From contig NZ_LT984804.1 of NCBI RefSeq assembly GCF_900250115.1, positions 2,061,301-2,125,300 on the forward strand: a stretch of DNA of 64,000 bases, written 5' to 3'. Both the position numbers and the translations under genes were made by a program. The notes under the pieces were generated by a model. That model did no database searches. It had not been told where the DNA came from and was given only the letters and a program-made list of their open reading frames with translations. The DNA is from Cupriavidus taiwanensis. Lineage in GTDB: Bacteria; Pseudomonadota; Gammaproteobacteria; Burkholderiales; Burkholderiaceae. Shown in pieces: positions 21,675 to 39,437 of this stretch. Every line of letters starts with the position of its first letter. Position 1 is the first letter of the stretch.

Positions 21675-22166
21675 TCAAGCGGAAGAGAACAGCTTTTCGA
21701 TCGGATAGTGGGTCTTGACGAAAGGAGACTTGATCACGATGAAGCTGAAGTACTTCTCGATCCCGATATTCCGTTCGAGCAGGCTTTCCATCAGTTCCTG
21801 GTAGTGGCTGACGCCACGGGTGATGAACTTCAGCAGGTAATCGTAGCCGCCGCTGACCAGGTGGCATTCGATGATCTCGTCCACGGCGCTCACTGCCCTC
21901 TCGAAGCGCACGAAATCCTCGCGATGGTGGTCTTCCAGCGTGACCTCGGTAAATACGGTGAGAATGTCGCCGAGTTTTTCCAGGCGAATATCGGCGCTGT
22001 ATCCGCCGATATAACCTGCCTGCTCGAGCCGCTTGACGCGAATCAGGCAAGGGCTTGCCGAAAGACCCACTGAATCGGCAAGGTCCACGTTCGTCATCCG
22101 GCCGTTTCTTTGCAGTTGGGCGAGAATCCGAAGGTCAAGGCGATCGAGTTTGATTGGCGCTGACAT
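21675..22166 (-). CDS. Lrp/AsnC-family regulator 1
   Basis: The 163-residue protein has the Lrp winged helix-turn-helix (LDRLDLRILAQLQRNGR, VGLSASPCLIRVKRLEQAGY) and the RAM ligand-binding domain (TEVTLEDHHREDFVRFE, VSGGYDYLLKFI). It is close to regulator 2 at 31577. The gene is divergent from the first permease gene, and the 401-base gap between them is the probable operator region. Lrp proteins of this group sense amino acids and activate the adjacent transport and breakdown genes. Confidence 0.92.
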   Translation of the reverse strand: MSAPIKLDRLDLRILAQLQRNGRMTNVDLADSVGLSASPCLIRVKRLEQAGYIGGYSADIRLEKLGDILTVFTEVTLEDHHREDFVRFERAVSAVDEIIECHLVSGGYDYLLKFITRGVSHYQELMESLLERNIGIEKYFSFIVIKSPFVKTHYPIEKLFSSA

Positions 22167-22567
22167 GGTCCTTCAAGCCTGGAATGACTGCATCACATTG
22201 TCCCGCTCCGATCCGGAGAGGGCAATCAGGGCGCGCCCGGACGATGCACAAGCGAGGGTATTCCCCAGGATTGCTGCAGTGCACAGGCACCCATAGCGTG
22301 CACATGGCATGCAATGCCGAACCATGCACCCGAAACCGCAGCTTTCACTGCCATCGTCCCCAATACCCCGCAAATTCGTCGGAGACACATGCTTCAATAC
22401 CCAGAAGGCGGAGATGGGTTGACTTGAGCAGCCGTGCGAGGGCTCGATCGCCGCTGGCAAACCAAGCGCATCCCAGCGCCTTGCACCGATGGTGCGCGCC
22501 CGCAAACCGCCAGGGCAGGCTGGCAGACACGGTCCGGCAGGCCGACTCGCCCCACAAGGAGACCTTC
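22167..22567. other. Divergent regulatory region between lrp 1 and the first ABC operon
   Basis: No gene is supported in these 401 bases. The right end carries the ribosome site AAGGAGACC before the permease ATG. The region is unrelated in sequence to the upstream region of the second permease copy (37289 onward), so the two copies are under different control. No Lrp consensus was identified by eye. Confidence 0.6.
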
Positions 22568-23524
22568 ATGAACCTGTTCATCTTGCGTCTGCTGGCGCGG
22601 CGTGTCGGACTGGCGCTGATCTCATTGCTGGCCGTCTCGGCCATCGTCTTCGCGATCACGGCGGTACTGCCCGGCGACGCCGCCCAGGAACAGCTCGGGC
22701 AGGACGCGACCCCGGAAGCCCTGGCCGCGCTGCGCAGCCAGATGGGCCTGGACGTGCCGGCGCCGGTACGCTACGCCCACTGGCTGCGCGGCCTGCTGAC
22801 CGGCGATGCCGGCGAGTCCCTGGCTACCCACATGCCGGTGTCGGAGGCCGTCGGCAGCCGGCTGCCCAATTCGCTGCTGTTGGCGGGCCTGACCGCGCTG
22901 ATTTCGGTGCCGGTGGCGCTGGGCCTCGGCATCCTCGCGGCGGTCTACCGCGGCACCTGGTTCGACCGCGGCGTCAGCCTCGGCGCGGTGGCAGTAGTCT
23001 CCGTGCCCGAATTCCTGGTCGCCACGCTGGCGGTGTTGCTGTTCGCGGTCCAGCTGCGCTGGCTGCCCGCGCTGGCCTATGTCGGCAACGACGAGTCCTG
23101 GGACAAGGTGCTGCGTTCGCTGGCCATGCCGGTGCTGACGCTGTGCTGCGTGATCGTGGCGCAGATGCTGCGCATGACGCGCGCCGCGGTGATCGACCAG
23201 CTGCAGGCGCCCTACATCGAGATGGTGCGGCTCAAGGGTGCTTCCGCGACCCGCCTGGTGCTGTTCCACGCGCTGCCCAACGCCATCGGCCCGATCGCCA
23301 ATGCCGTGGCGCTGAGCCTGTCCTACCTGCTGGGCGGCGTCATCATCATCGAGACCATCTTCAACTACCCGGGCATCGCCAAGCTGATGGTCGACAGTGT
23401 CGCCCAGCGCGACATGCCCGTGGTCCAGGTGTGCGCCATGATTTTCTGCGCCACCTACCTGACCCTCGTCACGCTTGCCGATGTGTGCGGCATCGTTGCC
23501 AACCCGCGTCTGCGTTACCGCTGA
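22568..23524 (+). CDS. Dipeptide/opine-type ABC transporter permease, DppB-like (copy 1)
   Basis: The 318-residue inner-membrane protein has six predicted helices, the first at residues 10-32, and the DppB/OppB pattern with the EAA loop (YIEMVRLKGASATRLVLFHALPNA) facing the ATPase. It is the first gene of the plus-strand arm of a large inverted duplication; the copy at 36332-37288 has the same length and differs only in the first ten codons and a few bases. No binding-protein gene accompanies this copy. ATG 22568 follows AAGGAGACC by a standard spacer. Confidence 0.93.
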   Translation: MNLFILRLLARRVGLALISLLAVSAIVFAITAVLPGDAAQEQLGQDATPEALAALRSQMGLDVPAPVRYAHWLRGLLTGDAGESLATHMPVSEAVGSRLPNSLLLAGLTALISVPVALGLGILAAVYRGTWFDRGVSLGAVAVVSVPEFLVATLAVLLFAVQLRWLPALAYVGNDESWDKVLRSLAMPVLTLCCVIVAQMLRMTRAAVIDQLQAPYIEMVRLKGASATRLVLFHALPNAIGPIANAVALSLSYLLGGVIIIETIFNYPGIAKLMVDSVAQRDMPVVQVCAMIFCATYLTLVTLADVCGIVANPRLRYR

Positions 23525-26068
23525 TGCCCTGAACGCCATGCAGGAGCCGCGCCCCGTGTCCACCACCACCAACACCACCCCGCTCGCCAGTGCCACCGGG
23601 GTCTCCCCGGCTGCGCCCGGCACTACCGATAAAAGCGGTGGCCGCCCGCGACGTCCCCGGTTAGGCATTAGCGGCTGGATCGGCTGCGTCATTCTTCTGG
23701 GCTGGCTGGTCGCCGCTATCTTCGGGCCGCTCCTGATCAACCCTGATGCAGCGGCCTCGGGCGAACTCCAGGTCTTCGCGCCGGTCAGCGCCCAGCACTG
23801 GCTCGGCACCGACTACATGGGCCGCGACATGCTCGCGCGCGTGCTGCTCGGCGCGCGCTACACCGTCTGCCTGGCGCTGGTCTCGACCCTGTGCGCCAGC
23901 GGCATCGGCATCACGCTGGCGCTGCTTGCCACCGTCAGCGGCCGCTGGATCGATGCCTGCCTGAGCCGCGGCCTCGATACGCTCACCGCGATCCCGAGCA
24001 AGATGTTCGCGCTGATCATGGTCGCCGCCTTCGGCTCCTCGGTGTGGATGCTCACCATCACCGCGGCCATCATCTACGTTCCCGGCGCGTATCGCATCGC
24101 GCGCTCGCTGGCGGTCAACATCAACGCGATGGACTACGTGACCGTCGCCCGCACGCGCGGCGAGGGCACCGCCTACATCATGCGCCAGGAGATCCTGCCC
24201 AATATCGTCGGCCCGATGCTGGCCGACCTGGGGCTGCGCTTCGTCTACGTCGTGCTGCTGCTCGCCAGCCTCAGCTTCCTCGGCCTGGGCATCCAGCCGC
24301 CCGAGGCCGACTGGGGTTCGCTGGTGCGCGAGAACATCGGCGCCCTCTCCGAGGGCAGCATGGCCGTGGTGGCGCCGGCGCTGGCCATCGCCAGCCTGAC
24401 CATGGCGGTCAACCTGGTCATCGACAATCTGCCGGGCCGCTCGGCACGTGGGAGGAAATAATGGGCACGTCCGTAACAGTCAGCAATCTGCGCATCACCG
24501 CCGGCGCGGCGACCCTGGTCGACGGCGTCGACTTCGAGATCGAGCCGGGCAAGGTGCTGGCCCTGATCGGCGAATCCGGCTCGGGCAAGACCACCACCGC
24601 GCTCGCCCTGATGGGCTTTGCGCGCGACGGCTGCGAGATCGCCGGCAGCATCCGGGTGGGCGCCACCGACGTGCTGCGCCTGCCGCCGGGCGAGCAGCGC
24701 CGGCTGCGCGGGCGCAATATCACGTATATCGCGCAAAGCGCCGCGGCCTCGTTCAACCCGTCGCGCACCATCATGGACCAGGTGGTCGAGCCGGCGCTGA
24801 TCCACCGCCTGATGGAGCGCAAGGCGGCCGAGCGCAAGGCGATCGCGCTGTTCCGTGAACTGGCGCTGCCCAATCCCGAGTCCATCGGCCAGCGCTATCC
24901 CCACCAGGTGTCCGGTGGCCAACTGCAGCGCCTGATGGCGGCCATGGCGCTGATCACCGATCCCGACCTGGTGATCCTGGACGAGCCGACCACGGCACTG
25001 GACGTGACCACGCAGGTCGAAGTGTTGCGCGTGTTCCGCCGCGCGGTGCGCGAGCGCCGCACCACCGCGGTCTATGTCAGCCACGACCTGGCCGTGGTGG
25101 CCCAGGTGGCCGACCATATCCTGGTGCTGCGCGATGGCAAGATGCGCGAGCTGGGCGAGACCGACCAGATCCTGTACCAGCCGGCCGACGACTACACCCG
25201 CTGCCTGCTGGCCGCGGCGCGCCCGGCCGAGCGTCCCGGCGCGCCGGTGGACCCGGACAAGAGCCCGCTGCTGCTCGAGGTGCGCGACCTGTCGGCCGGC
25301 TACGGCCCGCTCGATGCGCACGGGCAGCCCGCGGCGAAGATCCTGGAGGGGGTCGACCTGAAGCTGTACCGGGGCCAGGCCATCGGCGTGATCGGCGAGT
25401 CGGGCTCCGGCAAGACCACGCTGGCGCGGGCCGTCGCCGGGCTGGTGGCGCCGTGCCGCGGCAGCATCGCCTTCAACGGCCGCCCGCTGAAGCCGAGCGT
25501 GGCCGAGCGCAGCCGCGACGAGCTGCGCCGCATCCAGATCGTGTTCCAGATGGCCGATACCGCGCTCAATCCCGCGCGCACCATCCACGAGATCCTGGCC
25601 CGCCCGCTGCAGTTCTATCACGGCCTGCGCGGCGAAGCGCTGCGCGCGCGGATCCGCCAGCTGCTGGACCTGGTGCGGCTGCCGGCGGGCGTGGCGCAAC
25701 GCACACCGGGCGGCCTCTCCGGCGGGCAGAAGCAGCGGGTGAACCTGGCCCGCGCGCTTGCCGCCGAGCCCGAGCTGATCCTGTGCGACGAGATCACCTC
25801 GGCGCTGGACACCGTGGTCGGCGCCGCCATCCTCGACCTGATGGCCGAGCTGCGCAAGGAACTGGGGGTCTCGTACCTCTTCATCAGCCACGACCTGCAC
25901 ACCGTGCGCGCGATCTGCGACGAGATCGTGGTGATGCAGCACGGCCGCAAGCTGACCCAGGTCGCGCACGCGGACTATGACCGGGGCCCGCATCATCCTT
26001 ACTACGCCCTGCTGGCACGCTCGGTACCCGAACTGCGCCGCGGCTGGATCGATGAAGTCGACGTGCAT
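22598..26068 (+). repeat. Long inverted repeat, left arm (ABC transporter copy 1)
   Basis: From codon 11 of the first permease to six codons after the ATPase motif GWIDEVDVH, this stretch is nearly identical to the reverse complement of 33811-37258. I see only scattered substitutions, apart from one divergent stretch at about 23513-23680. The arms point toward each other and flank about 7.7 kb of unique DNA. Homologous recombination between them would invert the core. Confidence 0.9.
23538..24461 (+). CDS. Dipeptide/opine-type ABC transporter permease, DppC-like (copy 1)
   Basis: The 307-residue permease has a hydrophilic, Thr/Pro-rich N-terminal tail (about 45 residues), then six helices and the DppC-type EAA loop (MDYVTVARTRGEGTAYIMRQEILPN). 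It contains LGTDYMGRDMLARVLLGAR, common to this family. The tail differs from that of copy 2, whereas the membrane part is virtually the same. The stop codon overlaps the ATPase start (TAATG). The ATG at 23538 was chosen; the earlier in-frame ATG lies inside the upstream gene. Confidence 0.92.
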   Translation: MQEPRPVSTTTNTTPLASATGVSPAAPGTTDKSGGRPRRPRLGISGWIGCVILLGWLVAAIFGPLLINPDAAASGELQVFAPVSAQHWLGTDYMGRDMLARVLLGARYTVCLALVSTLCASGIGITLALLATVSGRWIDACLSRGLDTLTAIPSKMFALIMVAAFGSSVWMLTITAAIIYVPGAYRIARSLAVNINAMDYVTVARTRGEGTAYIMRQEILPNIVGPMLADLGLRFVYVVLLLASLSFLGLGIQPPEADWGSLVRENIGALSEGSMAVVAPALAIASLTMAVNLVIDNLPGRSARGRK

Positions 26069-26101
26069 ATCGACGGCGCCGTTGCCACGGAGCCGGCTTG
26101 A
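24461..26101 (+). CDS. ABC transporter ATP-binding protein, fused DppD-DppF type (copy 1)
   Basis: This 546-residue cytoplasmic protein carries two ATPase domains in one chain. The first has Walker A GESGSGKTTT (about 36-45), signature VSGGQLQRL and Walker B VILDEPTTALD. The second has GESGSGKTTL (about 313), LSGGQKQRV and Walker B LILCDEITSALD, where EI replaces the usual EP. Together they would power the two permeases. The final 12 residues (HIDGAVATEPA) differ from copy 2, because the duplication ends at base 26068. Start overlaps the permease stop. Confidence 0.93.
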   Translation: MGTSVTVSNLRITAGAATLVDGVDFEIEPGKVLALIGESGSGKTTTALALMGFARDGCEIAGSIRVGATDVLRLPPGEQRRLRGRNITYIAQSAAASFNPSRTIMDQVVEPALIHRLMERKAAERKAIALFRELALPNPESIGQRYPHQVSGGQLQRLMAAMALITDPDLVILDEPTTALDVTTQVEVLRVFRRAVRERRTTAVYVSHDLAVVAQVADHILVLRDGKMRELGETDQILYQPADDYTRCLLAAARPAERPGAPVDPDKSPLLLEVRDLSAGYGPLDAHGQPAAKILEGVDLKLYRGQAIGVIGESGSGKTTLARAVAGLVAPCRGSIAFNGRPLKPSVAERSRDELRRIQIVFQMADTALNPARTIHEILARPLQFYHGLRGEALRARIRQLLDLVRLPAGVAQRTPGGLSGGQKQRVNLARALAAEPELILCDEITSALDTVVGAAILDLMAELRKELGVSYLFISHDLHTVRAICDEIVVMQHGRKLTQVAHADYDRGPHHPYYALLARSVPELRRGWIDEVDVHIDGAVATEPA

Positions 26102-26194
26102 CGCATCCGGCGCTGCACGACAGTCGGGCATGTAATCCGCTCGCGAAACGCTACCCCGCGGTGGTCTCGGCCCGCCTGTGAGTAAAAGGTCGCG

Positions 26195-27472
26195 CTAATG
26201 CCGCCAGTCCTGCCATCGGTAGTACGCTCCAACGATCGGCAGGAACCATGGCTTACCGAAATGGCCGGGGATGGCTGGCCAATCCAGCTCTCGCCAGGGA
26301 TTGCACTCCGGGCGGCCTGCCATCACATCGGCCATGACCTGTCCCATATGTACCGACATCTGCACGCCATGTCCGCTGTAGCCGACCGAGTAATACAGCC
26401 CGTCATGCTGCCCTGCGCGCGGCAGCCGGTCCGCGGTCATGTCGACCAGCCCGCCCCAGCAGTAGTCGATGCGTACGCCCCGCAACTCCGGAAAGATGAC
26501 TTCCATCGCTGCCTGAAGGATACGGCCGCTCTTCTCGTCCGAGCGCGGATTCGACATCGCAAACCGTGCGCGTCCGCCAAACAGCAAACGGTTGTCGGGC
26601 GAGACGCGGAAGTAATTGCCGATGTGTTTCGAAGTCGTGTAACCACGGCGGTGCGGTAGCAGGCGATCGAGCAAGGCCTGGTCCAGTGGCTCCGTGCCGA
26701 TGATGAAACTGCCCACGGATATCATGCGCCGCCGCAAGAACGAGAACGGTCCGGTGCCAGAGTTCCCCGTCGCCAGCAGCACTTGCTTCGCTTCGATCTG
26801 GCCGCGTGGACTGCTCAGGCGAAACGTACCGTCGGCCCGCCGCTCCATTTTCGTGACCGGCGCGCGCTCGTAGATACGCGCACCGTTGCGTGCCGCGGCT
26901 TCGGCAAGCCCGACGCCGAACTTGCCCATGTGCATTTGGGCGCTGGTTTTCTGCAGCAGTCCACCAAAAAAGCTGTCAGAACGGACTTCGTCCTGCAATT
27001 GGGACCGCGGCACCATCTCGACATGCGGATCGACCTCCCGGCGCAACACATCGCAGGCGCGTGCGAGCTTGTCGTAGTGCTCAGGCTTCGCCGCCAGCTT
27101 CAGCTTGCCGGCGCGCACAAAGTCACAAGCGATATCCTCTCTGGCAATCACCATCTCGACGGTGTCGACAGCGGCGTCATAGGCCTGGTAAAACGCCCGG
27201 GCCCTGTCCACGCCAATCCGCTGGGCCAGCGACGCGAAGTCATGCGCGAGGCCGCTGTTGCAATGCCCGCCGTTGCGGCCAGACGCCTCGCCCACCACGC
27301 GGCCCGCCTCCAGCACGGTGACCGACGCCCCCCGCCTGGCGAGCGCCAGCGCGGCGGATAACCCGGTAAAACCCGCCCCGATTACCACGACGTCCGCGCG
27401 TCCCATGACGGGTCCTTGCGCCCCACCGACAAAGGCGGGTGCGGTATCGAGCCAATAGGATTCCAGTTTCAT
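26195..27472 (-). CDS. FAD-dependent amine/amino-acid oxidoreductase, PuuB/OrdL-like
   Basis: The 425-residue flavoprotein has the FAD Rossmann motif VVIGAGFTGLSAALALARRG (about 29-48) and GEASGRNGGHCNSG, which is typical of the gamma-glutamylputrescine oxidase/OrdL group of the DAO family. The C-terminal motif YYSVGYSGHGVQMS is the second FAD contact. It would oxidise a primary or secondary amine, releasing an aldehyde or keto acid and reducing oxygen or an acceptor. A HAD-family gene lies 45 bases upstream on the same strand, so the two form a transcript. The gene lies in the core between the inverted arms, convergent with the copy 1 ATPase. Confidence 0.88.
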   Translation of the reverse strand: MKLESYWLDTAPAFVGGAQGPVMGRADVVVIGAGFTGLSAALALARRGASVTVLEAGRVVGEASGRNGGHCNSGLAHDFASLAQRIGVDRARAFYQAYDAAVDTVEMVIAREDIACDFVRAGKLKLAAKPEHYDKLARACDVLRREVDPHVEMVPRSQLQDEVRSDSFFGGLLQKTSAQMHMGKFGVGLAEAAARNGARIYERAPVTKMERRADGTFRLSSPRGQIEAKQVLLATGNSGTGPFSFLRRRMISVGSFIIGTEPLDQALLDRLLPHRRGYTTSKHIGNYFRVSPDNRLLFGGRARFAMSNPRSDEKSGRILQAAMEVIFPELRGVRIDYCWGGLVDMTADRLPRAGQHDGLYYSVGYSGHGVQMSVHMGQVMADVMAGRPECNPWRELDWPAIPGHFGKPWFLPIVGAYYRWQDWRH

Positions 27473-27517
27473 CTCGGGCTCCTGTCCTGGTGGCTTTCCG
27501 GGTGCACGCGCTACTCC

Positions 27518-28192
27518 TTACAGGCCCACGAGTGCCGGCAGACCGCTCAGGTCCTTGATTTCGTGGCAACCCCACACCGACCAGCTCGGCTCGTGGCCAC
27601 GCGCGACGAAGGCCTTGTTCTTGATGCCGACATCGTCCGCCGACAAATGGTCGTAGCGCATGCTGGACGAAACGTGAAGCACGTCGTCGGGGGTGCATTC
27701 CAGCTGCTCGATCATGTACTCGAAAGCCCTCAGACGCGGCTTGTAGGCACCCGCCTGCTGTGCGGTATACACGCGGTGGAAAGGTGCGCCCAGCTTTTCG
27801 ACACTGTACGGGATCTGCACGTCCATGGCGTTCGAAAAGATCACCAGCTGGTATTCCTTGGCCAGGCGTGCCAGCGCGTCCGGCACATCCTTGTGGGGCT
27901 GCCAGGTCGGCACGGCGTTGTAGAACTTCAGGCCTTCGTTGTCGCGGTACTCGATACCCCAGCGGCGGCAAAGGCGCTCCACCGAATTGCACAGCAACTC
28001 GTCATACGGACGCCAGTCGCCCATCACCTCATCCAGGCGATAGCGCGCGAAGTCAGTCGTGAACTGCTGCATATTCTCCGGCGCGATGCGGTCGGCAAAA
28101 AGCTCGCGTGCCAGATCCGCCATCTGGAAGTTGATCAGGGTGCCGTAGCAATCGAAGGAGATGTACTTGGGTCGCAGGGTGGTGGCGCTCAT
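27518..28192 (-). CDS. HAD-superfamily hydrolase, haloacid-dehalogenase type II-like (paralogue 1)
   Basis: The 224-residue protein has the HAD nucleophile motif FDCYGTLINF (D14), the second motif VIFSNAM and the lysine motif YKPRLRAFEY. Overall it matches type II 2-haloacid dehalogenases, but the segment HVSSSMRYDH stands where true dehalogenases have SSNAWDA, and the tyrosine after the lysine motif is Phe. Residues assigned to halide/substrate handling therefore appear changed. A role other than dehalogenation is likely. It is paired with the oxidase gene downstream and has a close paralogue at 53664-54329. Confidence 0.82.
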   Translation of the reverse strand: MSATTLRPKYISFDCYGTLINFQMADLARELFADRIAPENMQQFTTDFARYRLDEVMGDWRPYDELLCNSVERLCRRWGIEYRDNEGLKFYNAVPTWQPHKDVPDALARLAKEYQLVIFSNAMDVQIPYSVEKLGAPFHRVYTAQQAGAYKPRLRAFEYMIEQLECTPDDVLHVSSSMRYDHLSADDVGIKNKAFVARGHEPSWSVWGCHEIKDLSGLPALVGL

Positions 28193-28802
28193 GTTTCAGG
28201 ATTCCATTCAGGTTGATTCGTGCCTCGCTATGTGCAAAGCTCGCTCGGCGGCTCGCTACCGGACGTAATTTCATGCGCGCTGGCGGCATATACCGGACCG
28301 TCGCCTCCTGGAAACCATTAAATCATGTGGGGCCGGTATGGATGTCTCGTTGTCATGCCGCCCGGCCACATTATTCTTCGATTTAAAACCATCGCACAGC
28401 ACGAGTTGCTGCGACCAGGAATCGCCCGTGTCGGCCCGTTCCATGCAAGTGGAATGATGGGGTCACAGCGTACGGTGAGGCACGCTTGCGGCGGCAGAAA
28501 TCCGGACACTGATGGCAGCTTGTCTGCAGGGCCGACACCGCTGCGCGGTCGTGACGCCATCGCGCGCGGGTAGCCGGGCAGGGATTCGACAGAAGCACGA
28601 TCTGCGGTCGGCCTGCCCGCAGACAGCACAACCTTCGGTTTGCCCCCGCCCTGCGCATCATCGTGTGGAATTGCATGGATCGGTCGAAACCCCCTCGAAG
28701 CTATGGCAACATTGTTCTTAACTACAGAGGCCTCGAACACAATCCCGCACGCTGTCAACGCAGAACTGGTTGCGGCGGCAGGCCAGGCAGATGAGGTAAA
28801 GC
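28193..28802. other. Intergenic region between divergent HAD and GNAT genes
   Basis: These 610 bases hold no gene I can support. Minus- and plus-strand frames of up to 146 codons exist, but they lack ribosome sites and family features. The GC content is lower than in the flanking genes. It must contain promoters for both the HAD-oxidase unit and the GNAT gene. Confidence 0.55.
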
Positions 28803-29666
28803 ATGAAAGATCCGAATGGGAGCGGCACCGTCCACTTTCGCAGCATGAAGCCGGAAGACCTGCCGGACGTGCATAAGCTGTCCCTGGCCACGTTGTGGCC
28901 GCACCGCCTCGAGGACTGGAAGTTCATCCTCGAGATCGGCGAGGGGATCGTCGCGGAAGACGGGACGGGCATTATCGGCACGGTGATGTACTGGTTCCAT
29001 GGCATGGACTACGCATGGCTGGGCATGACCATCGTCTCACCGGACCATCGCCATCAAGGACTCGGGCGCGATCTCGTCTCCCGGGCGCTGGTAGCAACCG
29101 GAGACCGAACAGTCCTGCTCCATACTACTGCGGATGGCGTACCGTTGTTCGAGAGCTTCGGCTTCCGGCCAACCGGCTGGGTACACCGGCACCAGGGCAG
29201 TGTCTTTCACTATCCGTTCGTGCCACTCAGTGCAGGCGAGCGCATCCGGCCCGTCAGCCCGCGGGACGAAGCCGCGCTAGCGGAGATGGCGAGCCGCTCC
29301 AGCGGCATGCCGCGCGCCACGGTGATCAAGCATTTGCTGACGGTCGCCGATATCGTCGCCATTGACCGGTACGGCGAATTGATTGCCTTCGCGGCACTGC
29401 GCAAGTTCGGCCACGGTTTCGTCATCGGGCCGGTGATCGCGCCCGATGTCGACCGCGCCAAGGCCTTGATCGCCCATTGGGCAGGCTCGCGTGCGGGCTC
29501 ATTCGTGCGTGCCGACGTTCCCGAAACCAGCGGCTTGAGTTCCTGGCTTACCGACATGGGCCTGGTGCAGGTCGATGAAACGGTGCAGGCAATGGCGCGT
29601 GGCAAACCGCCGCTGCCAGATGCTTCGATCACCCGGTTCGCTTTGCTCAGCCAGTCGTTAGGCTAG
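28803..29666 (+). CDS. Tandem-GNAT N-acetyltransferase (paralogue 1)
   Basis: The 287-residue protein has an N-terminal GNAT domain with the acetyl-CoA loop VSPDHRHQGLGRDLV (R/Q-x-x-G-x-G/A pattern) near residue 85. A second GNAT-like half (about 145-285) includes the segment DVDRAKALIAHWAGSRAGSF. This double-GNAT form with DUF4081-like C-terminal half matches the paralogue at 41874-42731. It probably acetylates or senses an amine or amino acid of the pathway. It stands alone on the plus strand; a hairpin follows the stop codon directly. Confidence 0.83.
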   Translation: MKDPNGSGTVHFRSMKPEDLPDVHKLSLATLWPHRLEDWKFILEIGEGIVAEDGTGIIGTVMYWFHGMDYAWLGMTIVSPDHRHQGLGRDLVSRALVATGDRTVLLHTTADGVPLFESFGFRPTGWVHRHQGSVFHYPFVPLSAGERIRPVSPRDEAALAEMASRSSGMPRATVIKHLLTVADIVAIDRYGELIAFAALRKFGHGFVIGPVIAPDVDRAKALIAHWAGSRAGSFVRADVPETSGLSSWLTDMGLVQVDETVQAMARGKPPLPDASITRFALLSQSLG

Positions 29667-29684
29667 GCGCTGCCCGAGCAGCGC
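29667..29684 (+). terminator. Possible terminator after the GNAT gene
   Basis: A perfect seven-base stem GCGCTGC with loop CCGA and GCAGCGC begins at the base after the stop codon. There is only a weak pyrimidine tail (TCCCCCT), so a true intrinsic terminator is uncertain. Confidence 0.4.
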
Positions 29685-30106
29685 TCCCCCTGCAGTTACA
29701 ACAGCAGCCGCATGGCACCTCCCACTGGCGTGCCCGTGCGGGAGCCTGGCGTCATGCATCGCAAGGTTCGCGTACTGCCGACGCATGCCAGGCAGCGGAT
29801 ATCACATCCGATGCAAGCCAACCCCGGCTGACGAAAATGGCACCAAAGCCGTATCGCCAATTCGCTCGCTTTTCCCATCGGGATTGAGGCAAGTGGCGCT
29901 CGCTGCAGGATGCCAGCGGCATCGCAGCATAACGTGTTGAAAACCACGCGAAATTGCGGTTTCGCATGAGTTGGGAAGCCAGGTCCGATAGTTAATGCTA
30001 CGCATCCGTGCCTAGAATGACTTGGCGTTCGTTCCCCGTGCACGACTCGGTTGACCACGATCGGTCTTGCCTGGCTGTGCAAGTTAGCCTTCCATATGGA
30101 TTCCTC
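29685..30106. other. Intergenic region upstream of the aminotransferase gene
   Basis: No gene is supported in these 422 bases. The region is AT-richer than its surroundings toward the right end and should hold the promoter of the aminotransferase-lrp pair. The frame open from 30008 is not a plausible N-terminus. Confidence 0.5.
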
Positions 30107-31489
30107 ATGCAAATCGATTCCCTGATCGCATTAGACCGCGAACACCTGATTCACCCCCTGGTCAACTACCGCGCCCACGAACAACGTGGCGTCACCATTC
30201 TCGAATCAGGGCACGGCGCCTACTTGAAGGATGCACAAGGCAATGAGCTGCTCGATGCCTTCTCCGGCCTCTGGTGCGTCAACGTAGGCTATGGCCAGCA
30301 GAGCATTGTCCAGGCCGCCGCGGAGCAGATGGCCAAGCTGCCTTATGCCACCGGCTATTTCCACTTCGGCTCCGAGCCGGCGATCCGGCTTGCGGCACGC
30401 CTGGTCGAATTGGCGCCGCCCTCGCTTCGGCACGTGTACTTCACGCTCGGCGGTTCGGATGCGGACGATTCAGCGATCCGCTTCATTACGCACTACTTCA
30501 ATTCGACAGGCCGGCCGCAGAAAAAGCAGTTCATTTCGCTCGAGCGTGGCTATCATGGTTCGTCGTCGCAAGGATCTGGGCTGACAGCGCTTTCGGTATT
30601 CCACAACAATTTCGATGTGCCGTTGCGCAACCAGCACAAGATTCCCTCGCCCTATCCTTACCGCAATCCTGTGGGCCCGGATCCGGAAGCCATCATCCGT
30701 GCGTCGGTGGAAGCCTTGCGATCCAAGGTGCGGGAACTGGGCGCGGACAATGTCGCCGCCTTCTTCTGCGAACCGATCCAGGGCTCCGGTGGCGTCATCG
30801 TTCCGCCCAAGGGCTGGCTCAAGGCAATGCGCATCGCGTGCCGCGAGTTGGGAATCCTGTTCGTCGTTGACGAGGTCATCACCGCGTTCGGCCGCACCGG
30901 TCCGATGTTCGCGTGCGAAGCCGAAGGCGTCGAGCCGGACCTGATGACGATTGCGAAGGGCTTGACCGCCGCTTACGCGCCGATGGGCGCGGTACTGATG
31001 TCGGATGAAGTGTACGCAGGCATCGCGGACGGTATGGCCAGCGGCGTTCCGGTGGGCCACGGCTATACCTATTCTGCACACCCTGTCAGCGCTGCCATCG
31101 GCCTGGAAGTGCTCCGGCTATACACGGAGGGCGGGCTGATCGCTAACGGTATTGCGCAAGCCCCGCACTTCGAGGAAGGCCTGCGCAGCCTGCTCAGCCA
31201 CCCGCTGGTTGGCGAGGCGCGCAGCCGCGGGCTGCTCGGCGCGCTGGAACTGGTCAGTGACAAGTCCAGCAAAGAGCGCTTCAGCCCCTCGCTGAAGCTT
31301 CACGAGCGCATCACCGAGGTCGCCTACCGCAACAAAGTGGTATTCCGCGCCTTCGGCGACAACATCCTCGGCTTCGCGCCGGCGCTCTGCTATACCGCGG
31401 CCGATTTCGAGCTGCTGTTCGCCCGTTTGAAAAAGACGCTGGATGAAGTGCTGGCCCAACCCGAAGTCCGGGCGGCCGTCAAGCAGTAA
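30107..31489 (+). CDS. Class III omega-aminotransferase (PLP)
   Basis: The 460-residue PLP enzyme shows the class III layout: LLDAFSGLWCVNVGYGQ at the N-terminus, GGSDADDSAIRF, SLERGYHGSSS, LFVVDEVITAFGRTG and the PLP lysine in MTIAKGLTAAYAPMGAV. It resembles putrescine- or beta-alanine-pyruvate transaminases (SpuC group) that release an aldehyde from an omega-amino group. The usual GSEANDSA motif reads GSDADDSA here. An Lrp regulator gene follows 87 bases later, and the GabD-like dehydrogenase gene is convergent beyond it. The aldehyde would be passed to GabD (inference). Confidence 0.92.
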   Translation: MQIDSLIALDREHLIHPLVNYRAHEQRGVTILESGHGAYLKDAQGNELLDAFSGLWCVNVGYGQQSIVQAAAEQMAKLPYATGYFHFGSEPAIRLAARLVELAPPSLRHVYFTLGGSDADDSAIRFITHYFNSTGRPQKKQFISLERGYHGSSSQGSGLTALSVFHNNFDVPLRNQHKIPSPYPYRNPVGPDPEAIIRASVEALRSKVRELGADNVAAFFCEPIQGSGGVIVPPKGWLKAMRIACRELGILFVVDEVITAFGRTGPMFACEAEGVEPDLMTIAKGLTAAYAPMGAVLMSDEVYAGIADGMASGVPVGHGYTYSAHPVSAAIGLEVLRLYTEGGLIANGIAQAPHFEEGLRSLLSHPLVGEARSRGLLGALELVSDKSSKERFSPSLKLHERITEVAYRNKVVFRAFGDNILGFAPALCYTAADFELLFARLKKTLDEVLAQPEVRAAVKQ

Positions 31490-31576
31490 GTCTATTTGCG
31501 CCAATGTCCCCGTAGTGTCAACGCGGGGAATAGTCCTGCTAACGTACCTGAATGACGAGACTGGCGGAGGATCGCG

Positions 31577-32071
31577 ATGTTTGACACGCCTAAACTGGAT
31601 CGGATCGACATCTCTATCCTCAGCCATCTGCAACGTAACGGCCGTACCACCAACGTGGACCTGGCCGATGCGGTCGGGCTCTCGCCCAGCCCGTGCCTGA
31701 TCCGCGTAAAGCGCCTGGAGAAAGCGGGCTACATCGGTGGATATGGCGCCCAACTCCGGCTGGAAAAACTGGGAAACATGCAGATCGTGTTTACCCAGGT
31801 AACACTATCCGATCACCGTCGCGAGGACTTCGCCAAATTCGAGGCTACGATTCGAGACATTGACGAGATCGTCGAATGCCACCTGGTGAGCGGCGGCTTC
31901 GATTACATGCTGAAGTTCGTGACATGCGGCGTGGCGCACTACCAGAGCATTGTCGAGGATGTGCTCAGGCAGAACGTCAATATCGAGAAATACTTCAGTT
32001 ATATCGTGATCAAGTCGTCGTTCGTCAAAGGCTATTATCCGATCACCAAGCTGCTTGCCGGACACGAATAG
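31577..32071 (+). CDS. Lrp/AsnC-family regulator 2
   Basis: The 164-residue regulator has the same domains as regulator 1 at 21675: helix-turn-helix (LDRIDISILSHLQRNGR, VGLSPSPCLIRVKRLEKAGY) and RAM domain (TQVTLSDHRREDFAKFE, VSGGFDYMLKFV). More than half of the residues are the same in both by eye, especially in the recognition helix. GGAGGATCGCG precedes the ATG. It follows the aminotransferase gene and is convergent with gabD. Both Lrp proteins may bind the same operators. Confidence 0.92.
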   Translation: MFDTPKLDRIDISILSHLQRNGRTTNVDLADAVGLSPSPCLIRVKRLEKAGYIGGYGAQLRLEKLGNMQIVFTQVTLSDHRREDFAKFEATIRDIDEIVECHLVSGGFDYMLKFVTCGVAHYQSIVEDVLRQNVNIEKYFSYIVIKSSFVKGYYPITKLLAGHE

Positions 32072-32213
32072 CCGGCCGCTCGACTCGCCCTATCCGGCCT
32101 TACCTCGCCATGCCGGCCTGTCACGTTTTTCGACGACGAGCGCCGCGGGTCGTGTAATGCCTTCCCCCTTCTCTCCAGCCTTGGCAAATCGCCTGCTTGC
32201 CGCCGTCCAAGGC

Positions 32214-32237
32214 AAAACGGCCGGCTTGCGCCGGCCG
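32214..32237 (-). terminator. Intrinsic terminator of the gabD operon
   Basis: Read on the minus strand, the stem CGGCCGGC, loop GCAA, stem GCCGGCCG is followed by TTTT. It lies 23 bases after the gabD stop and would end the long minus-strand transporter operon. Confidence 0.7.
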
Positions 32238-32259
32238 CCCTGGTAACAGAGGCAGCGCC

Positions 32260-33741
32260 TCAGTCCAGCTGGCCCTGGCACACGTACTTGATGTGCATGT
32301 ACTCGTCCATGCCATGGCGAGACCCCTCGCGCCCATAGCCCGAGTCTTTCACCCCGCCGAACGGCGCCGCTTCCGCTGCCAGCGCGCCTTCGTTGATCCC
32401 GACAATGCCTGACTCGAGCGCATCGGCAAGGCGCCAGATCCGCCTCACGTCATTCGAGTAAAAATATGCCGCCAGGCCGAATGGTGTCGCATTGGCTGCC
32501 GCAACCACGTCGGCTTCTGTACTGAAGCGCGTCACCGGTGCGACCGGGCCAAAGGTCTCTTCATAAGAGCACTGCATGGAGGCATCGGCATCCACCAGCA
32601 CGGTCGGGGCATAGTAGTTGGGACCCGGGCATTCGGCGTTGCGGATGCGTTTTCCACCCACGACAACGCGGGCGCCGCGGCTGACGGCTTCCTGCACGTG
32701 CCGCTCGATTTTCTCGACCGCGCGTGCATTGATCATGGGGCCGATCTGCGCCGCGGGATTGGTGGCAGGCCCTACGACCAGCGCTCCGACGCGGGCTGCG
32801 AGCTTGTCGACGAAGGCGTCATGCACCTTGTCCTGGACATAGATCCGGTTCGGGCAAACGCAGGTCTGCCCGCCGTTGCGGAACTTGGCAGCCATCAGGC
32901 CCTCGACGGCGGCGTCGAGATCGGCATCATCGAAGACGATGAACGGCGCATTGCCCCCGAGTTCAAGCGACAGCTTCTTGAGCGTATCGGCGGAGCGGCG
33001 CGCCAGGTGCTTGCCAACCGGGGTCGAGCCCGTAAAGGTGATCTTGCGCACCCGGGCATCGTCCAGCCAGACATCGACCACTTCGGCCGCCCGCTCGCGC
33101 GAGGCCGTGACGATGTTCAGCACCCCTGGCGGCACGCCCGCCTCTTCCGCGAGCCGTACCAGCGCCAGTGAGGTCAGCGGCGTATCCTCGGCCGGCTTGC
33201 AGACCACCGTGCAGCCTGCCGCCAGCGCCGGGGCAATCTTGCGTGCGATCATCGCAGCGGGGAAGTTCCAGGGGGTGATGGCGGCGATGACCCCGACCGG
33301 TTCACGCAGTGCCAGCATGCGGCGGCCCGGAACCGGTGCGGCAATCACATCGCCGTCCGCGCGCGTGGCCTCTTCGGCAAACCATTCGACATAGCTGGCG
33401 GCGTACAGGACCTCGCCTTTGCCCTCCGCCAGGGGCTTGCCCTGCTCGCGCGAGATCAGGCTGCCAAGGTCTTCGAGGTGGCTGACGATCAGGTCATTCC
33501 AGCGCTTGATGATCTGAGCGCGTTGCTTGGCCGGGGTCTTGCGCCAGGCGGGAAATGCGGCATGGGCGACGTCGACGGCGAGCCGGGCCTCGGCGGCGCC
33601 GCTGTCCGGTACGGATGCGAAGACCTCATCGGTGGCAGGATCCGACACGTCAAGTGTTCGCTGGTCCGCACCGCTACACCATTCGCCGCCGATATAGTTG
33701 CGGCCGGGAAGCAGACTCTGTTTCTGGAGGGGAAGAGGCAT
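32260..33741 (-). CDS. gabD: NAD(P)-dependent succinate-semialdehyde dehydrogenase-like
   Basis: The 493-residue ALDH has the catalytic cysteine in NGGQTCVCPNR and glutamate in LELGGNAPF, the GabD-type motif ITPWNFPAAMIARK with the substrate-side Arg/Lys, and the C-terminal FGGVKDSGYGREGS. These features match GabD more than betaine or aliphatic ALDHs. ATG 33741 gives the family N-terminus; the open frame beyond it overlaps the ATPase. The gene follows the copy 2 ATPase by 25 bases and is the last member of the minus-strand operon. Product would be succinate or a related dicarboxylate. Confidence 0.9.
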   Translation of the reverse strand: MPLPLQKQSLLPGRNYIGGEWCSGADQRTLDVSDPATDEVFASVPDSGAAEARLAVDVAHAAFPAWRKTPAKQRAQIIKRWNDLIVSHLEDLGSLISREQGKPLAEGKGEVLYAASYVEWFAEEATRADGDVIAAPVPGRRMLALREPVGVIAAITPWNFPAAMIARKIAPALAAGCTVVCKPAEDTPLTSLALVRLAEEAGVPPGVLNIVTASRERAAEVVDVWLDDARVRKITFTGSTPVGKHLARRSADTLKKLSLELGGNAPFIVFDDADLDAAVEGLMAAKFRNGGQTCVCPNRIYVQDKVHDAFVDKLAARVGALVVGPATNPAAQIGPMINARAVEKIERHVQEAVSRGARVVVGGKRIRNAECPGPNYYAPTVLVDADASMQCSYEETFGPVAPVTRFSTEADVVAAANATPFGLAAYFYSNDVRRIWRLADALESGIVGINEGALAAEAAPFGGVKDSGYGREGSRHGMDEYMHIKYVCQGQLD

Positions 33742-33766
33742 TGGAAAAATCTCCTTGATAACGGCG

Positions 33767-35419
33767 TTAGATTGCGGTGCTGGCAACGCCAGCGGGCTTG
33801 GCTTTTCTTCCATGCACGTCGACTTCATCGATCCAGCCGCGGCGCAGCTCGGGTACCGAGCGCGCCAGCAGGGCGTAGTAAGGATGATGCGGGCCCCGGT
33901 CATAGTCCGCGTGCGCGACCTGGGTCAGCTTGCGGCCGTGCTGCATCACCACGATCTCGTCGCAGATCGCGCGCACGGTGTGCAGGTCGTGGCTGATGAA
34001 GAGGTACGAGACCCCCAGTTCCTTGCGCAGCTCGGCCATCAGGTCGAGGATGGCGGCGCCGACCACGGTGTCCAGCGCCGAGGTGATCTCGTCGCACAGG
34101 ATCAGCTCGGGCTCGGCGGCAAGCGCGCGGGCCAGGTTCACCCGCTGCTTCTGCCCGCCGGAGAGGCCGCCCGGCGTGCGCTGCGCCACGCCCGCCGGCA
34201 GCCGCACCAGGTCCAGCAGCTGGCGGATCCGCGCGCGCAGCGCTTCGCCGCGCAGGCCGTGATAGAACTGCAGCGGGCGGGCCAGGATCTCGTGGATGGT
34301 GCGCGCGGGATTGAGCGCGGTATCGGCCATCTGGAACACGATCTGGATGCGGCGCAGCTCGTCGCGGCTGCGCTCGGCCACGCTCGGCTTCAGCGCGCGG
34401 CCGTTGAAGGCGATGCTGCCGCGGCACGGCGCCACCAGCCCGGCGACGGCCCGCGCCAGCGTGGTCTTGCCGGAGCCCGACTCGCCGATCACGCCGATGG
34501 CCTGGCCCCGGTACAGCTTCAGGTCGACCCCCTCCAGGATCTTCGCCGCGGGCTGCCCGTGCGCATCGAGCGGGCCGTAGCCGGCCGACAGGTCGCGCAC
34601 CTCGAGCAGCAGCGGGCTCTTGTCCGGGTCCACCGGCGCGCCGGGGCGCTCGGCCGGGCGCGCCGCGGCCAGCAGGCAGCGGGTGTAGTCGTCGGCCGGC
34701 TGGTACAGGATCTGGTCGGTCTCGCCCAGCTCGCGCATCTTGCCATCGCGCAGCACCAGGATATGGTCGGCCACCTGGGCCACCACGGCCAGGTCGTGGC
34801 TGACATAGACCGCGGTGGTGCGGCGCTCGCGCACCGCGCGGCGGAACACGCGCAGCACTTCGACCTGCGTGGTCACGTCCAGTGCCGTGGTCGGCTCGTC
34901 CAGGATCACCAGGTCGGGATCGGTGATCAGCGCCATGGCCGCCATCAGGCGCTGTAGCTGCCCACCGGACACCTGGTGGGGATAGCGCTGGCCGATGGAC
35001 TCGGGATTGGGCAGCGCCAGTTCACGGAACAGCGCGATCGCCTTGCGCTCGGCCGCCTTGCGCTCCATCAGGCGGTGGATCAGCGCCGGCTCGACCACCT
35101 GGTCCATGATGGTGCGCGACGGGTTGAACGAGGCCGCGGCGCTTTGCGCGATATACGTGATGTTGCGCCCGCGCAGCCGGCGCTGCTCGCCCGGCGGCAG
35201 GCGCAGCACGTCGGTGGCGCCCACCCGGATGCTGCCGGCGATCTCGCAGCCGTCGCGCGCAAAGCCCATCAGGGCGAGCGCGGTGGTGGTCTTGCCCGAG
35301 CCGGATTCGCCGATCAGGGCCAGCACCTTGCCCGGCTCGATCTCGAAGTCGACGCCGTCGACCAGGGTCGCCGCGCCGGCGGTGATGCGCAGATTGCTGA
35401 CTGTTACGGACGTGCCCAT
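33767..35419 (-). CDS. ABC transporter ATP-binding protein, fused DppD-DppF type (copy 2)
   Basis: The 550-residue protein is nearly the same as copy 1 (24461-26101), with both ATPase domains and all motifs intact. The visible amino-acid differences are one Pro-to-Ala change (GRALKPS) and a new C-terminus (HGRKAKPAGVASTAI) created where the duplication ends at 33811. Silent changes are few and scattered. Its start overlaps the DppC-like stop codon by one base, as in copy 1. The gabD-like gene follows. Confidence 0.93.
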   Translation of the reverse strand: MGTSVTVSNLRITAGAATLVDGVDFEIEPGKVLALIGESGSGKTTTALALMGFARDGCEIAGSIRVGATDVLRLPPGEQRRLRGRNITYIAQSAAASFNPSRTIMDQVVEPALIHRLMERKAAERKAIALFRELALPNPESIGQRYPHQVSGGQLQRLMAAMALITDPDLVILDEPTTALDVTTQVEVLRVFRRAVRERRTTAVYVSHDLAVVAQVADHILVLRDGKMRELGETDQILYQPADDYTRCLLAAARPAERPGAPVDPDKSPLLLEVRDLSAGYGPLDAHGQPAAKILEGVDLKLYRGQAIGVIGESGSGKTTLARAVAGLVAPCRGSIAFNGRALKPSVAERSRDELRRIQIVFQMADTALNPARTIHEILARPLQFYHGLRGEALRARIRQLLDLVRLPAGVAQRTPGGLSGGQKQRVNLARALAAEPELILCDEITSALDTVVGAAILDLMAELRKELGVSYLFISHDLHTVRAICDEIVVMQHGRKLTQVAHADYDRGPHHPYYALLARSVPELRRGWIDEVDVHGRKAKPAGVASTAI

Positions 35420-37258
35420 TATTTCCTCCCACGTGCCGAGCGGCCCGGCAGATTGTCGATGACCAGGTTGACCGCCATGGTCAGGCTGGCGATGGCCAGC
35501 GCCGGCGCCACCACGGCCATGCTGCCCTCGGAGAGGGCGCCGATGTTCTCGCGCACCAGCGAACCCCAGTCGGCCTCGGGCGGCTGGATGCCCAGGCCGA
35601 GGAAGCTGAGGCTGGCGAGCAGCAGCACGACGTAGACGAAGCGCAGCCCCAGGTCGGCCAGCATCGGGCCGACGATATTGGGCAGGATCTCCTGGCGCAT
35701 GATGTAGGCGGTGCCCTCGCCGCGCGTGCGGGCGACGGTCACGTAGTCCATCGCGTTGATGTTGACCGCCAGCGAGCGCGCGATGCGATACGCGCCGGGA
35801 ACGTAGATGATGGCCGCGGTGATGGTGAGCATCCACACCGAGGAGCCGAAGGCGGCGACCATGATCAGCGCGAACATCTTGCTCGGGATCGCGGTGAGCG
35901 TATCGAGGCCGCGGCTCAGGCAGGCATCGATCCAGCGGCCGCTGACGGTGGCAAGCAGCGCGAGCGTGATGCCGATGCCGCTGGCGCACAGGGTCGAGAC
36001 CAACGCCAGGCAGACGGTGTAGCGCGCGCCGAGCAGCACGCGCGCAAGCATGTCGCGGCCCATGTAGTCGGTGCCGAGCCAGTGCTGGGCGCTGACCGGC
36101 GCGAAGACCTGGAGTTCGCCCGAGGCCGCTGCATCAGGGTTGATCAGGAGCGGCCCGAAGATAGCGGCGACCAGCCAGCCCAGAAGAATGACGCAGCCGA
36201 TCCAGCCGGTGAGGCCTAAGCGGGGCAGGCGCGGGTGGCGACGGCGCGTTGCGGCTGTGCCGAGGGTGACCGGCGCTTGTGTGTTGGAAGTTGGGGACAT
36301 GAATTGCGGCTCCTGCTTGGCGTTCAAGGCATCAGCGGTGGCGCAGACGCGGGTTGGCAACGATGCCGCACACATCGGCAAGCGTGACGAGGGTCAGGTA
36401 GGTGGCGCAGAAAATCATGGCGCACACCTGGACCACGGGCATGTCGCGCTGGGCGACACTGTCGACCATCAGCTTGGCGATGCCCGGGTAGTTGAAGATG
36501 GTCTCGATGATGATGACGCCGCCCAGCAGGTAGGACAGGCTCAGCGCCACGGCATTGGCGATCGGGCCGATGGCGTTGGGCAGCGCGTGGAACAGCACCA
36601 GGCGGGTCGCGGAAGCACCCTTGAGCCGCACCATCTCGATGTAGGGCGCCTGCAGCTGGTCGATCACCGCGGCGCGCGTCATGCGCAGCATCTGCGCCAC
36701 GATCACGCAGCACAGCGTCAGCACCGGCATGGCCAGCGAACGCAGCACCTTGTCCCAGGACTCGTCGTTGCCGACATAGGCCAGCGCGGGCAGCCAGCGC
36801 AGCTGGACCGCGAACAGCAACACCGCCAGCGTGGCGACCAGGAATTCGGGCACGGAGACTACTGCCACCGCGCCGAGGCTGACGCCGCGGTCGAACCAGG
36901 TGCCGCGATAGACCGCCGCGAGGATGCCGAGGCCCAGCGCCACCGGCACCGAAATCAGCGCGGTCAGGCCCGCCAGCAGCAGCGAATTGGGCAGCCGGCT
37001 GCCGACGGCCTCCGACACCGGCATGTGGGTAGCCAGGGACTCGCCGGCATCGCCGGTCAGCAGGCCGCGCAGCCAGTGGGCGTAGCGTACCGGCGCCGGC
37101 ACGTCCAGGCCCATCTGGCTGCGCAGCGCGGCCAGGGCTTCCGGGGTCGCGTCCTGCCCGAGCTGTTCCTGGGCGGCGTCGCCGGGCAGTACCGCCGTGA
37201 TCGCGAAGACGATGGCCGAGACGGCCAGCAATGAGATCAGCGCCAGTCCGACACGCCG
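33811..37258 (-). repeat. Long inverted repeat, right arm (ABC transporter copy 2)
   Basis: This is the reverse-complement partner of 22598-26068. It includes the ATPase up to GWIDEVDVH, the DppC-like gene and all but the first ten codons of the DppB-like gene. The two arms differ by about 23 bases in length because of the divergent DppC N-terminus. Confidence 0.9.
35419..36300 (-). CDS. Dipeptide/opine-type ABC transporter permease, DppC-like (copy 2)
   Basis: The 293-residue permease has the same membrane core as copy 1 (GWIGCVILLGWLVAAIFGPL onward) but a different and shorter N-terminal tail starting MSPTSNTQAPVTLG, with basic residues just before helix 1. The EAA loop is unchanged. ATG 36300 was chosen over an upstream in-frame ATG that lies inside the DppB gene. 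It overlaps the ATPase start by one base. Confidence 0.92.
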   Translation of the reverse strand: MSPTSNTQAPVTLGTAATRRRHPRLPRLGLTGWIGCVILLGWLVAAIFGPLLINPDAAASGELQVFAPVSAQHWLGTDYMGRDMLARVLLGARYTVCLALVSTLCASGIGITLALLATVSGRWIDACLSRGLDTLTAIPSKMFALIMVAAFGSSVWMLTITAAIIYVPGAYRIARSLAVNINAMDYVTVARTRGEGTAYIMRQEILPNIVGPMLADLGLRFVYVVLLLASLSFLGLGIQPPEADWGSLVRENIGALSEGSMAVVAPALAIASLTMAVNLVIDNLPGRSARGRK

Positions 37259-37288
37259 GACCAGCAGACGAAATATAAACGGGTTCAT
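36332..37288 (-). CDS. Dipeptide/opine-type ABC transporter permease, DppB-like (copy 2)
   Basis: This 318-residue permease matches copy 1 except near the N-terminus (MNPFIFRLLVRR here, MNLFILRLLARR there) and at the penultimate codon region. AAAAGGAGACCC precedes the ATG at 37288. It follows the family 5 binding protein gene by 379 bases on the same strand. The complete set binding protein-permeases-ATPase in this operon suggests it is the original and the plus-strand arm is the derived copy (inference). Confidence 0.93.
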   Translation of the reverse strand: MNPFIFRLLVRRVGLALISLLAVSAIVFAITAVLPGDAAQEQLGQDATPEALAALRSQMGLDVPAPVRYAHWLRGLLTGDAGESLATHMPVSEAVGSRLPNSLLLAGLTALISVPVALGLGILAAVYRGTWFDRGVSLGAVAVVSVPEFLVATLAVLLFAVQLRWLPALAYVGNDESWDKVLRSLAMPVLTLCCVIVAQMLRMTRAAVIDQLQAPYIEMVRLKGASATRLVLFHALPNAIGPIANAVALSLSYLLGGVIIIETIFNYPGIAKLMVDSVAQRDMPVVQVCAMIFCATYLTLVTLADVCGIVANPRLRHR

Positions 37289-37667
37289 GAGGGTCTCCTT
37301 TTCTAGTTGATCAATCGGGCCGTGATTTCCGAGGTCCGGCGCGTGGTCCGCCCCATCGGGTCGTTCACGGCATCCCGGACCGGTCCGTCCCGCCAGCACG
37401 CGAGCGGACCACTGCCAGGATCGGCATTCTTCAGATGGCCAATGGATGTATCCGAATCCATACCGGTAGTTGCACGCCGGCAAGCTGGACGCGGCAGGTG
37501 GCGACGGGCTGGTTCCAGCCGCGTCGCCCGGGGGGGAAAATCTATACCTGGCTTGAATCTGCTTCAGAAAATCTCGCGTGTTGGGGTCTTGACTCCGAGC
37601 GCTGAGGCGCGGCCGCAGGCGAAAACAGGGTCGGTGTCTGGAACGCGGCCATTCCAGCTTCCTCTGG
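37289..37667. other. Intergenic gap between binding protein and permease genes
   Basis: These 379 bases hold no supported gene. The gap is large for an operon, so a promoter, processing site or attenuating hairpin between the highly expressed binding protein and the permeases is possible. I could not place a definite hairpin. Confidence 0.5.
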
Positions 37668-39287: not shown

Positions 39288-39437
39288 GGTCGTACTCCTG
39301 GTTTGGTGGGCAGGCCCAAGCAAAAGCGTTGATGTGCGGCGATTTAAGCATGCGTCCCCACGCCATTTATCGGGAAATGGGCGATTACGACGCGTAAAAG
39401 ATGCGGTTTTCAAAAGCCCGGACGGCAGTTCCTGCGG

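Follow-up and report, generated by a model that had tools for sequence, protein, structure and literature searches.

Why does one bacterial genome carry two almost identical transporter cassettes on either side of a single block of genes, and how old is the pair? We addressed this question in a 64,000-nucleotide stretch of Cupriavidus taiwanensis (assembly GCF_900250115.1, contig NZ_LT984804.1, positions 2,061,301 to 2,125,300 of the forward strand), referred to here as the window; positions below are window positions. The genome is 7.0 Mb in three contigs, and the window lies on a contig of 2.8 Mb. The two cassettes, copies o1 and o2, are arms of an inverted repeat, each with two permease genes and a fused ATP-binding cassette (ABC) ATPase gene. 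An earlier, sequence-only reading took them for a reversible switch or a recent duplication. Comparison with other Cupriavidus genomes indicates that o1 and o2 are very probably old duplicates, held near-identical by repeated interlocus gene conversion (concerted evolution).

Structure of the inverted repeat

A repeat search of the window returned the inverted pairs 23607-26068 / 33812-36273 and 22556-23575 / 36281-37300. The arms and their parts are listed below; the limits of arms 1 and 2 come from repeat search, BLASTN and alignment.

22556..26068, plus strand: arm 1 (copy o1), homologous span; near-identical part 22598-26068
33812..37300, minus strand: arm 2 (copy o2), homologous span; near-identical part 33812-37258
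22598..23514, plus strand: putatively converted tract 1 of arm 1 (permease 1), 2 mismatches in 917 against arm 2
23515..23671, plus strand: putatively unconverted patch of arm 1 (end of the permease 1 gene and N-terminal tail of permease 2), from the alignment, with 24 of 24 informative sites grouping by locus
23672..26068, plus strand: putatively converted tract 2 of arm 1 (remaining permease 2 and fused ATPase), 14 mismatches in 2,397 against arm 2
22568..23524, plus strand: permease 1 of o1 (BPD_transp_1; DppB/NikB type), profile matches
23538..24461, plus strand: permease 2 of o1 (BPD_transp_1; DppC/NikC type), profile matches
24461..26101, plus strand: fused double ABC ATPase of o1 (two ABC_tran stretches), profile matches, start from translation
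33767..35419, minus strand: fused double ABC ATPase of o2, with a C-terminal tail unlike that of o1, translation and alignment
35419..36300 (start approximate), minus strand: permease 2 of o2, translation and alignment
36332..37288, minus strand: permease 1 of o2, translation and alignment

The cassettes thus extend over 22568-26101 (plus strand) and 33767-37288 (minus strand), and the arms lie tail to tail at a spacing of 7,743 bp. The pairwise alignment proposed earlier for the arms, run as a single BLASTN pair of 22556-26068 against 37300-33812, came to 3,513 columns, of which 58 were mismatched and 24 gapped (97.67% identity). The inverted near-identical arms were confirmed by repeat search and BLASTN, with the end of arm 2 at 33812, and the tail-to-tail order, the two permeases with a fused ATPase and the listed core genes were all borne out. 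The statement that the arms are almost the same over about 3.45 kb holds for the two near-identical tracts and fails in the diverged 157-bp patch that interrupts them. This patch (23515-23671) borders sharply on both tracts; of its 157 columns, 40 are mismatches and 24 are gap positions. It covers the point where the two permease genes meet and the sequence for the N-terminal tail of permease 2, a tail that differs widely among the loci listed. Among the tails listed from other genera, no foreign source for the o1 tail was traceable by eye.

No third close copy of the cassette was found genome-wide; among the 40 scored out of 793 first-look candidates, the other matches were short fragments of 67-94% identity. 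The DNA outside and between the arms had been described as unique. BLASTN of the window corrected this with an inverted pair of diverged lrp1/lrp2 genes (21690-22151 / 31592-32053, 72.6%) and a direct pair of HAD genes (27606-28187 / 53752-54333, 71.5%). The SBP_bac_5 binding-protein genes form a further direct pair (37668-39303 / 51893-53528), 82.5% alike in DNA. In a quick tree, each of these two sbp genes of the window joined its own orthologue in the sister genome G010, so this pair is without the homogenisation seen in the transporter.

Probable gene conversion between the two copies

The two copies were compared with the two copies of G010 in a quartet over the span 22556-23905, in which tract 2 is represented by its first 234 bases. 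Of 62 informative sites, 28 grouped the sequences by locus, 33 by species and 1 crosswise. The locus-grouping sites fell in the 5' edge (4) and in the patch (24) and nowhere else, and every edge and patch site (28/28) was of this kind. Sites grouping by species were confined to the tracts, where they made up 22 of 23 sites in tract 1 (the other being the cross site) and 11 of 11 in tract 2. With the cross site excluded, the 61 sites formed 4 runs, and as few runs appeared in none of 100,000 permutations. The duplication is older than the split from the sister species, because the locus-specific edge and patch segments are common to both species; the copies seem recent because the tracts were homogenised after that split, very probably by gene conversion.

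Four-fold degenerate sites gave the same contrast. In permease 1, o1 and o2 differed at 1 of 209 such sites, versus 16 of 204 between o1 and copy 1 of G010. In the ATPase, o1 and o2 differed at 5 of 334 sites, versus 70 of 313 and 73 of 314 between o1 and the two copies of G020, a genome of the C. necator group. A lack of constraint cannot by itself account for the contrast between tracts and patch, because synonymous sites in the tracts are nearly free of differences too. If four-fold sites keep time, the last homogenisation may be dated, very roughly, to one-seventh of the age of the split (6/543 for o1/o2 in permease 1 plus ATPase, versus 16/204 for o1 and G010 copy 1 in permease 1 only).

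In the mechanism that we propose, gene conversion would be the non-crossover outcome of homologous recombination between the copies and would repeatedly homogenise the coding tracts, while the outer edge and the patch at the permease 2 N-terminal tail would escape. RecA-dependent strand exchange would begin in the alike coding parts and halt where alignment fails, at indels and unrelated flanks.

Several observations weigh against this reading. The permease 1 copies of G010 differ from each other at 10 of 208 four-fold sites, while copy 1 of G010 and copy 1 of G039, a second sister assembly, differ at 9 of 208; the permease 1 copies of G033 differ at 6 of 201. By these counts, homogenisation is uneven across genomes. 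In the permease 1 tree, the clade of o1 and o2 had a support of 93/89, under the mark of 95/80. The sister contigs end inside the repeat, which places most of permease 2 and the ATPase outside the sister comparison. Finally, the pair in the window and that in the C. necator group may stem from one duplication or from two.

The cassette in other Cupriavidus genomes

A search of 60 genomes of the genus, one per species and with that of the window included, found the cassette at E <= 1e-100 in 13. Two copies were present on one contig in G000, G019, G020 and G033 and were inferred from junction contigs in G010, G039 and G014. One copy at this threshold was found in G004, G026, G032, G040 and G044, and G041 had a partial match. 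In G019, G020 and G033, which belong to the C. necator group, the pair sits at corresponding places, and the copies are in direct orientation with start positions 27.4, 31.3 and 34.9 kb apart, respectively. Within these genomes, the arms were 99.32% (G019), 99.29% (G020) and 99.15% (G033) identical, and the differences clustered in the first and last 100 bp. Between genomes, identity was 94.0-96.8% for G020 versus G033 and G019 (four pairs) and 88.3-88.6% for G020 versus the window copies. The pair is homogenised in these three relatives too, and therefore concerted evolution of this transporter appears to be a general phenomenon.

The site of the second copy is empty in the fetched part of G040. 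In G019, G020 and G033, the second copy includes a segment with homology to the sequence upstream of the first operon, and it looks like a copy of the first operon minus the binding-protein gene. The 80 bp before permease 1 of this second copy resemble the 3' end of a binding-protein gene in decay, judged against the intact counterpart that precedes the first copy in G020 and G033; they are perhaps the scar of a lost sbp gene. The leader motif before permease 1 of o2 matched the second copy of G019, G020 and G033 (z 12.2, 8.5 and 8.6). This motif was rejected as a marker of descent, weaker matches being present in the single-copy genomes G032 and G026 too (z 3.3 and 6.1). The C-terminal tails of the ATPase were likewise set aside as a marker; they are fast-evolving and sometimes converted (G014). 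On a contig of Variovorax sp. YR752 (L080), permease 2 was matched in pieces with starts near 947, 1267 and 1448, which suggests that the gene there is frameshifted or misassembled.

Orientation of the core and the position of gabD

The genes between and beside the arms are as follows.

21675..22166, minus strand: lrp1, Lrp/AsnC regulator, divergent from o1 (Pfam)
22255..22398, plus strand: upstream region of o1, 77.8% identical over 144 bp to the region upstream of the lrp1-linked sbp-transporter operon of G040
26195..27472, minus strand: flavin adenine dinucleotide (FAD)-dependent oxidase (DAO; PuuB-like); best NCBIfam model L-pipecolate oxidase, below cut-off
27518..28192, minus strand: HAD protein; haloacid dehalogenase type II model, above cut-off
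28803..29666, plus strand: GNAT acetyltransferase (Pfam)
30107..31489 (start inferred from the match), plus strand: class III aminotransferase; PRK05965, above cut-off
31577..32071, plus strand: lrp2, Lrp/AsnC regulator (Pfam)
32260..33741 (start inferred), minus strand: gabD, succinate-semialdehyde dehydrogenase, directly downstream of o2; TIGR01780, above cut-off
37668..39413, minus strand: sbp1, SBP_bac_5 substrate-binding protein, upstream of o2 (profile matches)
39438..40934, minus strand: aldehyde dehydrogenase (aldh), upstream of sbp1 (profile match)

Inverted repeats flank the core, as invertible DNA requires. Because the copies are inverted, the crossover outcome of the same recombination would flip the 7.7-kb core; flipping is mechanistically expected, and none was observed. 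A flip would shift gabD between the aldh-sbp1 operon and the lrp1-side operon, and may have happened in the lineage. By gene order, gabD would be the only arm-adjacent gene to change operon, because the oxidase and HAD genes run convergent to the transporter whichever way the core lies. The earlier expectation that inversion would detach gabD from its present operon was therefore right by gene strands, and the accompanying one, on the HAD-oxidase pair downstream of the copy 2 transporter, needs the correction that the pair would be convergent to it.

The position of gabD distinguishes the window from its relatives. In all eight other Cupriavidus loci with lrp1 and the cassette on one contig (G004, G019, G020, G026, G032, G033, G040 and G044), the lrp1-linked copy is followed by gabD on the same strand. 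The gabD gene of the window adjoins o2, the copy away from lrp1, and its junction and phylogeny are orthologous to those of the relatives' lrp1-side gabD. Copy o1 still has lrp1 beside it, together with part of the sequence that precedes the relatives' operon, and a flip of the core on paper would bring lrp1, transporter and gabD back into the order seen in the relatives. The linkage is what one past crossover between the inverted arms would leave; duplication plus loss would explain it equally well.

Under duplication plus loss, gabD would have moved without a flip: the transporter and gabD were duplicated behind sbp1, and the original lrp1-side gabD was later lost. We regard this as a contender that falls somewhat short of even chances. 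The o2 transporter-gabD junction is contiguous and orthologous, the ATPase tail of o1 is like the lrp1-side tail of some relatives (a slightly better fit to the tails), and the number of events equals that of duplication plus inversion. Against it, the sequence downstream of o1 (159 bp here, 230 bp in G010) holds no clear remnant of gabD, the best short match being 23 bp at E 0.002 in G010, and lrp1, the cassette and gabD stand together in all eight of the other resolved loci.

Under a reversible switch, crossover would flip the core in living populations and toggle gabD between two operons, one state of which has been seen. This is conceivable, although we consider it rather unlikely. The arms are inverted, recombination between them was recent on an evolutionary scale, gabD lies behind the lrp1-linked copy in the eight relatives and behind the other copy here with an orthologous junction, and the hypothetical flipped state would reunite the three elements as in the relatives. 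However, the opposite orientation was read in no genome; the sister assemblies G010 and G039 break inside the arms and hold the core on isolated contigs. The o1-side ATPase tail is closer than the o2-side tail to some relatives' gabD-linked copies, a pattern that a simple crossover would not predict, although the tails themselves are convertible (G014). A Pfam scan of 20 proteins of the window brought up no site-specific recombinase. In addition, a comparable inverted repeat in yeast kept its orientation over ~53,800 laboratory mitoses and 950 meioses (PMC9731477).

Assembly artefact or recent duplication

An assembly artefact, with one copy invented or the core in the wrong orientation, is highly improbable. 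The arms exceed the length of short reads, and the orientation of the core is the part to which such an error could still apply. Nevertheless, the copies differ in patch, edges and flanks, and the genome is in only three contigs. In G010, one contig ends with alr-lrp1-permease 1-permease 2, another ends with sbp1-permease 1-permease 2, and a 9.2-kb contig carries the core, bounded on either side by an ATPase end. The G010 and G039 assemblies thus break at the arms and yet hold the flanks of two copies: all four flanks in G010, and in G039 the two 3' flanks with one fetched 5' flank. These flanks make an invented copy, which had been named as a possible refutation of the repeat, unlikely.

A recent duplication, in which the second arm was copied from the first in this species shortly before now, is hardly credible and is refuted by the locus-specific segments shared with the sister species: the tracts do look young (16 mismatches in 3,314 bp), but uniform likeness of the copies would be expected, whereas each copy, in its patch and 5' edge, is like its counterpart locus in G010 and unlike the other copy in its own genome. 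In addition, G010 has the two 5' flanks on separate contigs, and in G010 and G039 alike a single contig carries the two 3' flanks.

Transporter, core and flanking genes

The cassette is predicted to be a dipeptide/oligopeptide/nickel-type (family 5) ABC importer. The hallmarks of an importer are present, namely two BPD_transp_1 permeases, two ABC domains and an SBP_bac_5 protein, with an sbp gene adjoining o2 only. The summed score of its two domains took the ATPase past the cut-offs for NikD and NikE, while both permeases and the binding protein scored below the cut-offs of the models listed. By consensus, promoter- or terminator-like sites were absent from 22100-22700. No Rfam family reached its gathering score in 18000-45000, and no tRNA was found in the window.

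A near-whole core was found in at least 3 of the 60 genus genomes (G000, G010 and G039) among the matches listed. In a search of the family at E <= 1e-300, 7 of 150 genomes matched, with a near-whole core only in G000 and G039 among the matches listed, which did not include G010. Plasmid records held no near match to the arrangement, the best hit covering 24% of the query at 84.8%. Between the o1-type end of the ATPase and the oxidase, G010 and G039 carry a further gene of ~1.1 kb that resembles FAD-dependent oxidoreductases (L055 252-1400); the same two flanks are only 18 bp apart in the window (26176-26194), by loss here or gain in G010 and G039.

Relatives of the core oxidase and HAD protein at 79-80% protein identity were found in G088, from another genus (G088:C1, L160-L162). 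There the pair belongs to an aldh-had-oxidase-sbp-transporter operon that is intact but whose transporter is another one, with an ATPase 63% identical. The left half of the core looks like a truncated operon of this kind. The puuB and had1 genes were rejected as orthologues of the oxidase and HAD genes beside the relatives' second copy; in quick trees of 13 and 11 rows, respectively, they stood apart on long, flagged branches.

Comparison with known systems

The process that the results support well, conversion between duplicates of long standing, is of a known kind; the place is new. The locus is a clean natural case in which "recent duplication", read from near-identity, is wrong, and in which conversion would remove the differences separately in each species, sparing the edges and a short tail. 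At loci like this, ages assigned to duplications and assemblies made from short reads call for caution. The edges, core junctions and diagnostic patch could also serve as markers with which to tally conversion and inversion events within one small system. Among titles and opening lines of abstracts in the open-licence literature on gene conversion, concerted evolution and inversion in Cupriavidus, no account of the locus was found.

Many loci of Burkholderiales (L079-L152) carry an operon of the order aldh-had-oxidase-sbp-permease-permease-ATPase-(~1 kb)-gabD beside divergent GNAT, aminotransferase and Lrp genes (gnat-amt-lrp). These are the same families as in the arms, core and flanks of the window; unlike that operon, the one in the window is in pieces, with the transporter doubled and inverted. 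In a member of the Burkholderiaceae, a different outcome of repeat recombination is reported, the fusion of chromosome and chromid across rRNA operons (PMC8729776).

The tuf gene pair of Salmonella is a model of bacterial gene conversion (PMC5485169). There, conversion was selected and its kinetics measured, whereas here the case concerns a three-gene transporter cassette with an internal unconverted patch, read from sequences alone. In nontypeable Haemophilus influenzae, a ~400 kb inversion with sites in the promoters of HMW1 and HMW2 occurred three times during persistence in one patient (PMC10127715). It ends at two related loci and changes which of them is expressed, a likeness to the window; unlike that system, the arms of the window are coding genes, and no inversion was observed.

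The closest published analogue that we found is the "flip/flop" region of Saccharomyces chromosome XIV, where homogenised, gene-bearing inverted repeats occur in both orientations in nature (PMC9731477). In both systems, a gene-bearing inverted repeat of ~4 kb, homogenised within strains and diverging between species, flanks a multi-gene block, and the patterns of concerted evolution match. The yeast block is 24 kb and is found in both orientations, whereas that of the window is bacterial, 7.7 kb long and read in one orientation. We tentatively suggest, as a less probable extension of the conversion reading, that the locus may be a bacterial counterpart of flip/flop, in which a re-homogenised inverted repeat would keep the core flippable and gabD toggling, with at least one flip since the split from the C. 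necator group.

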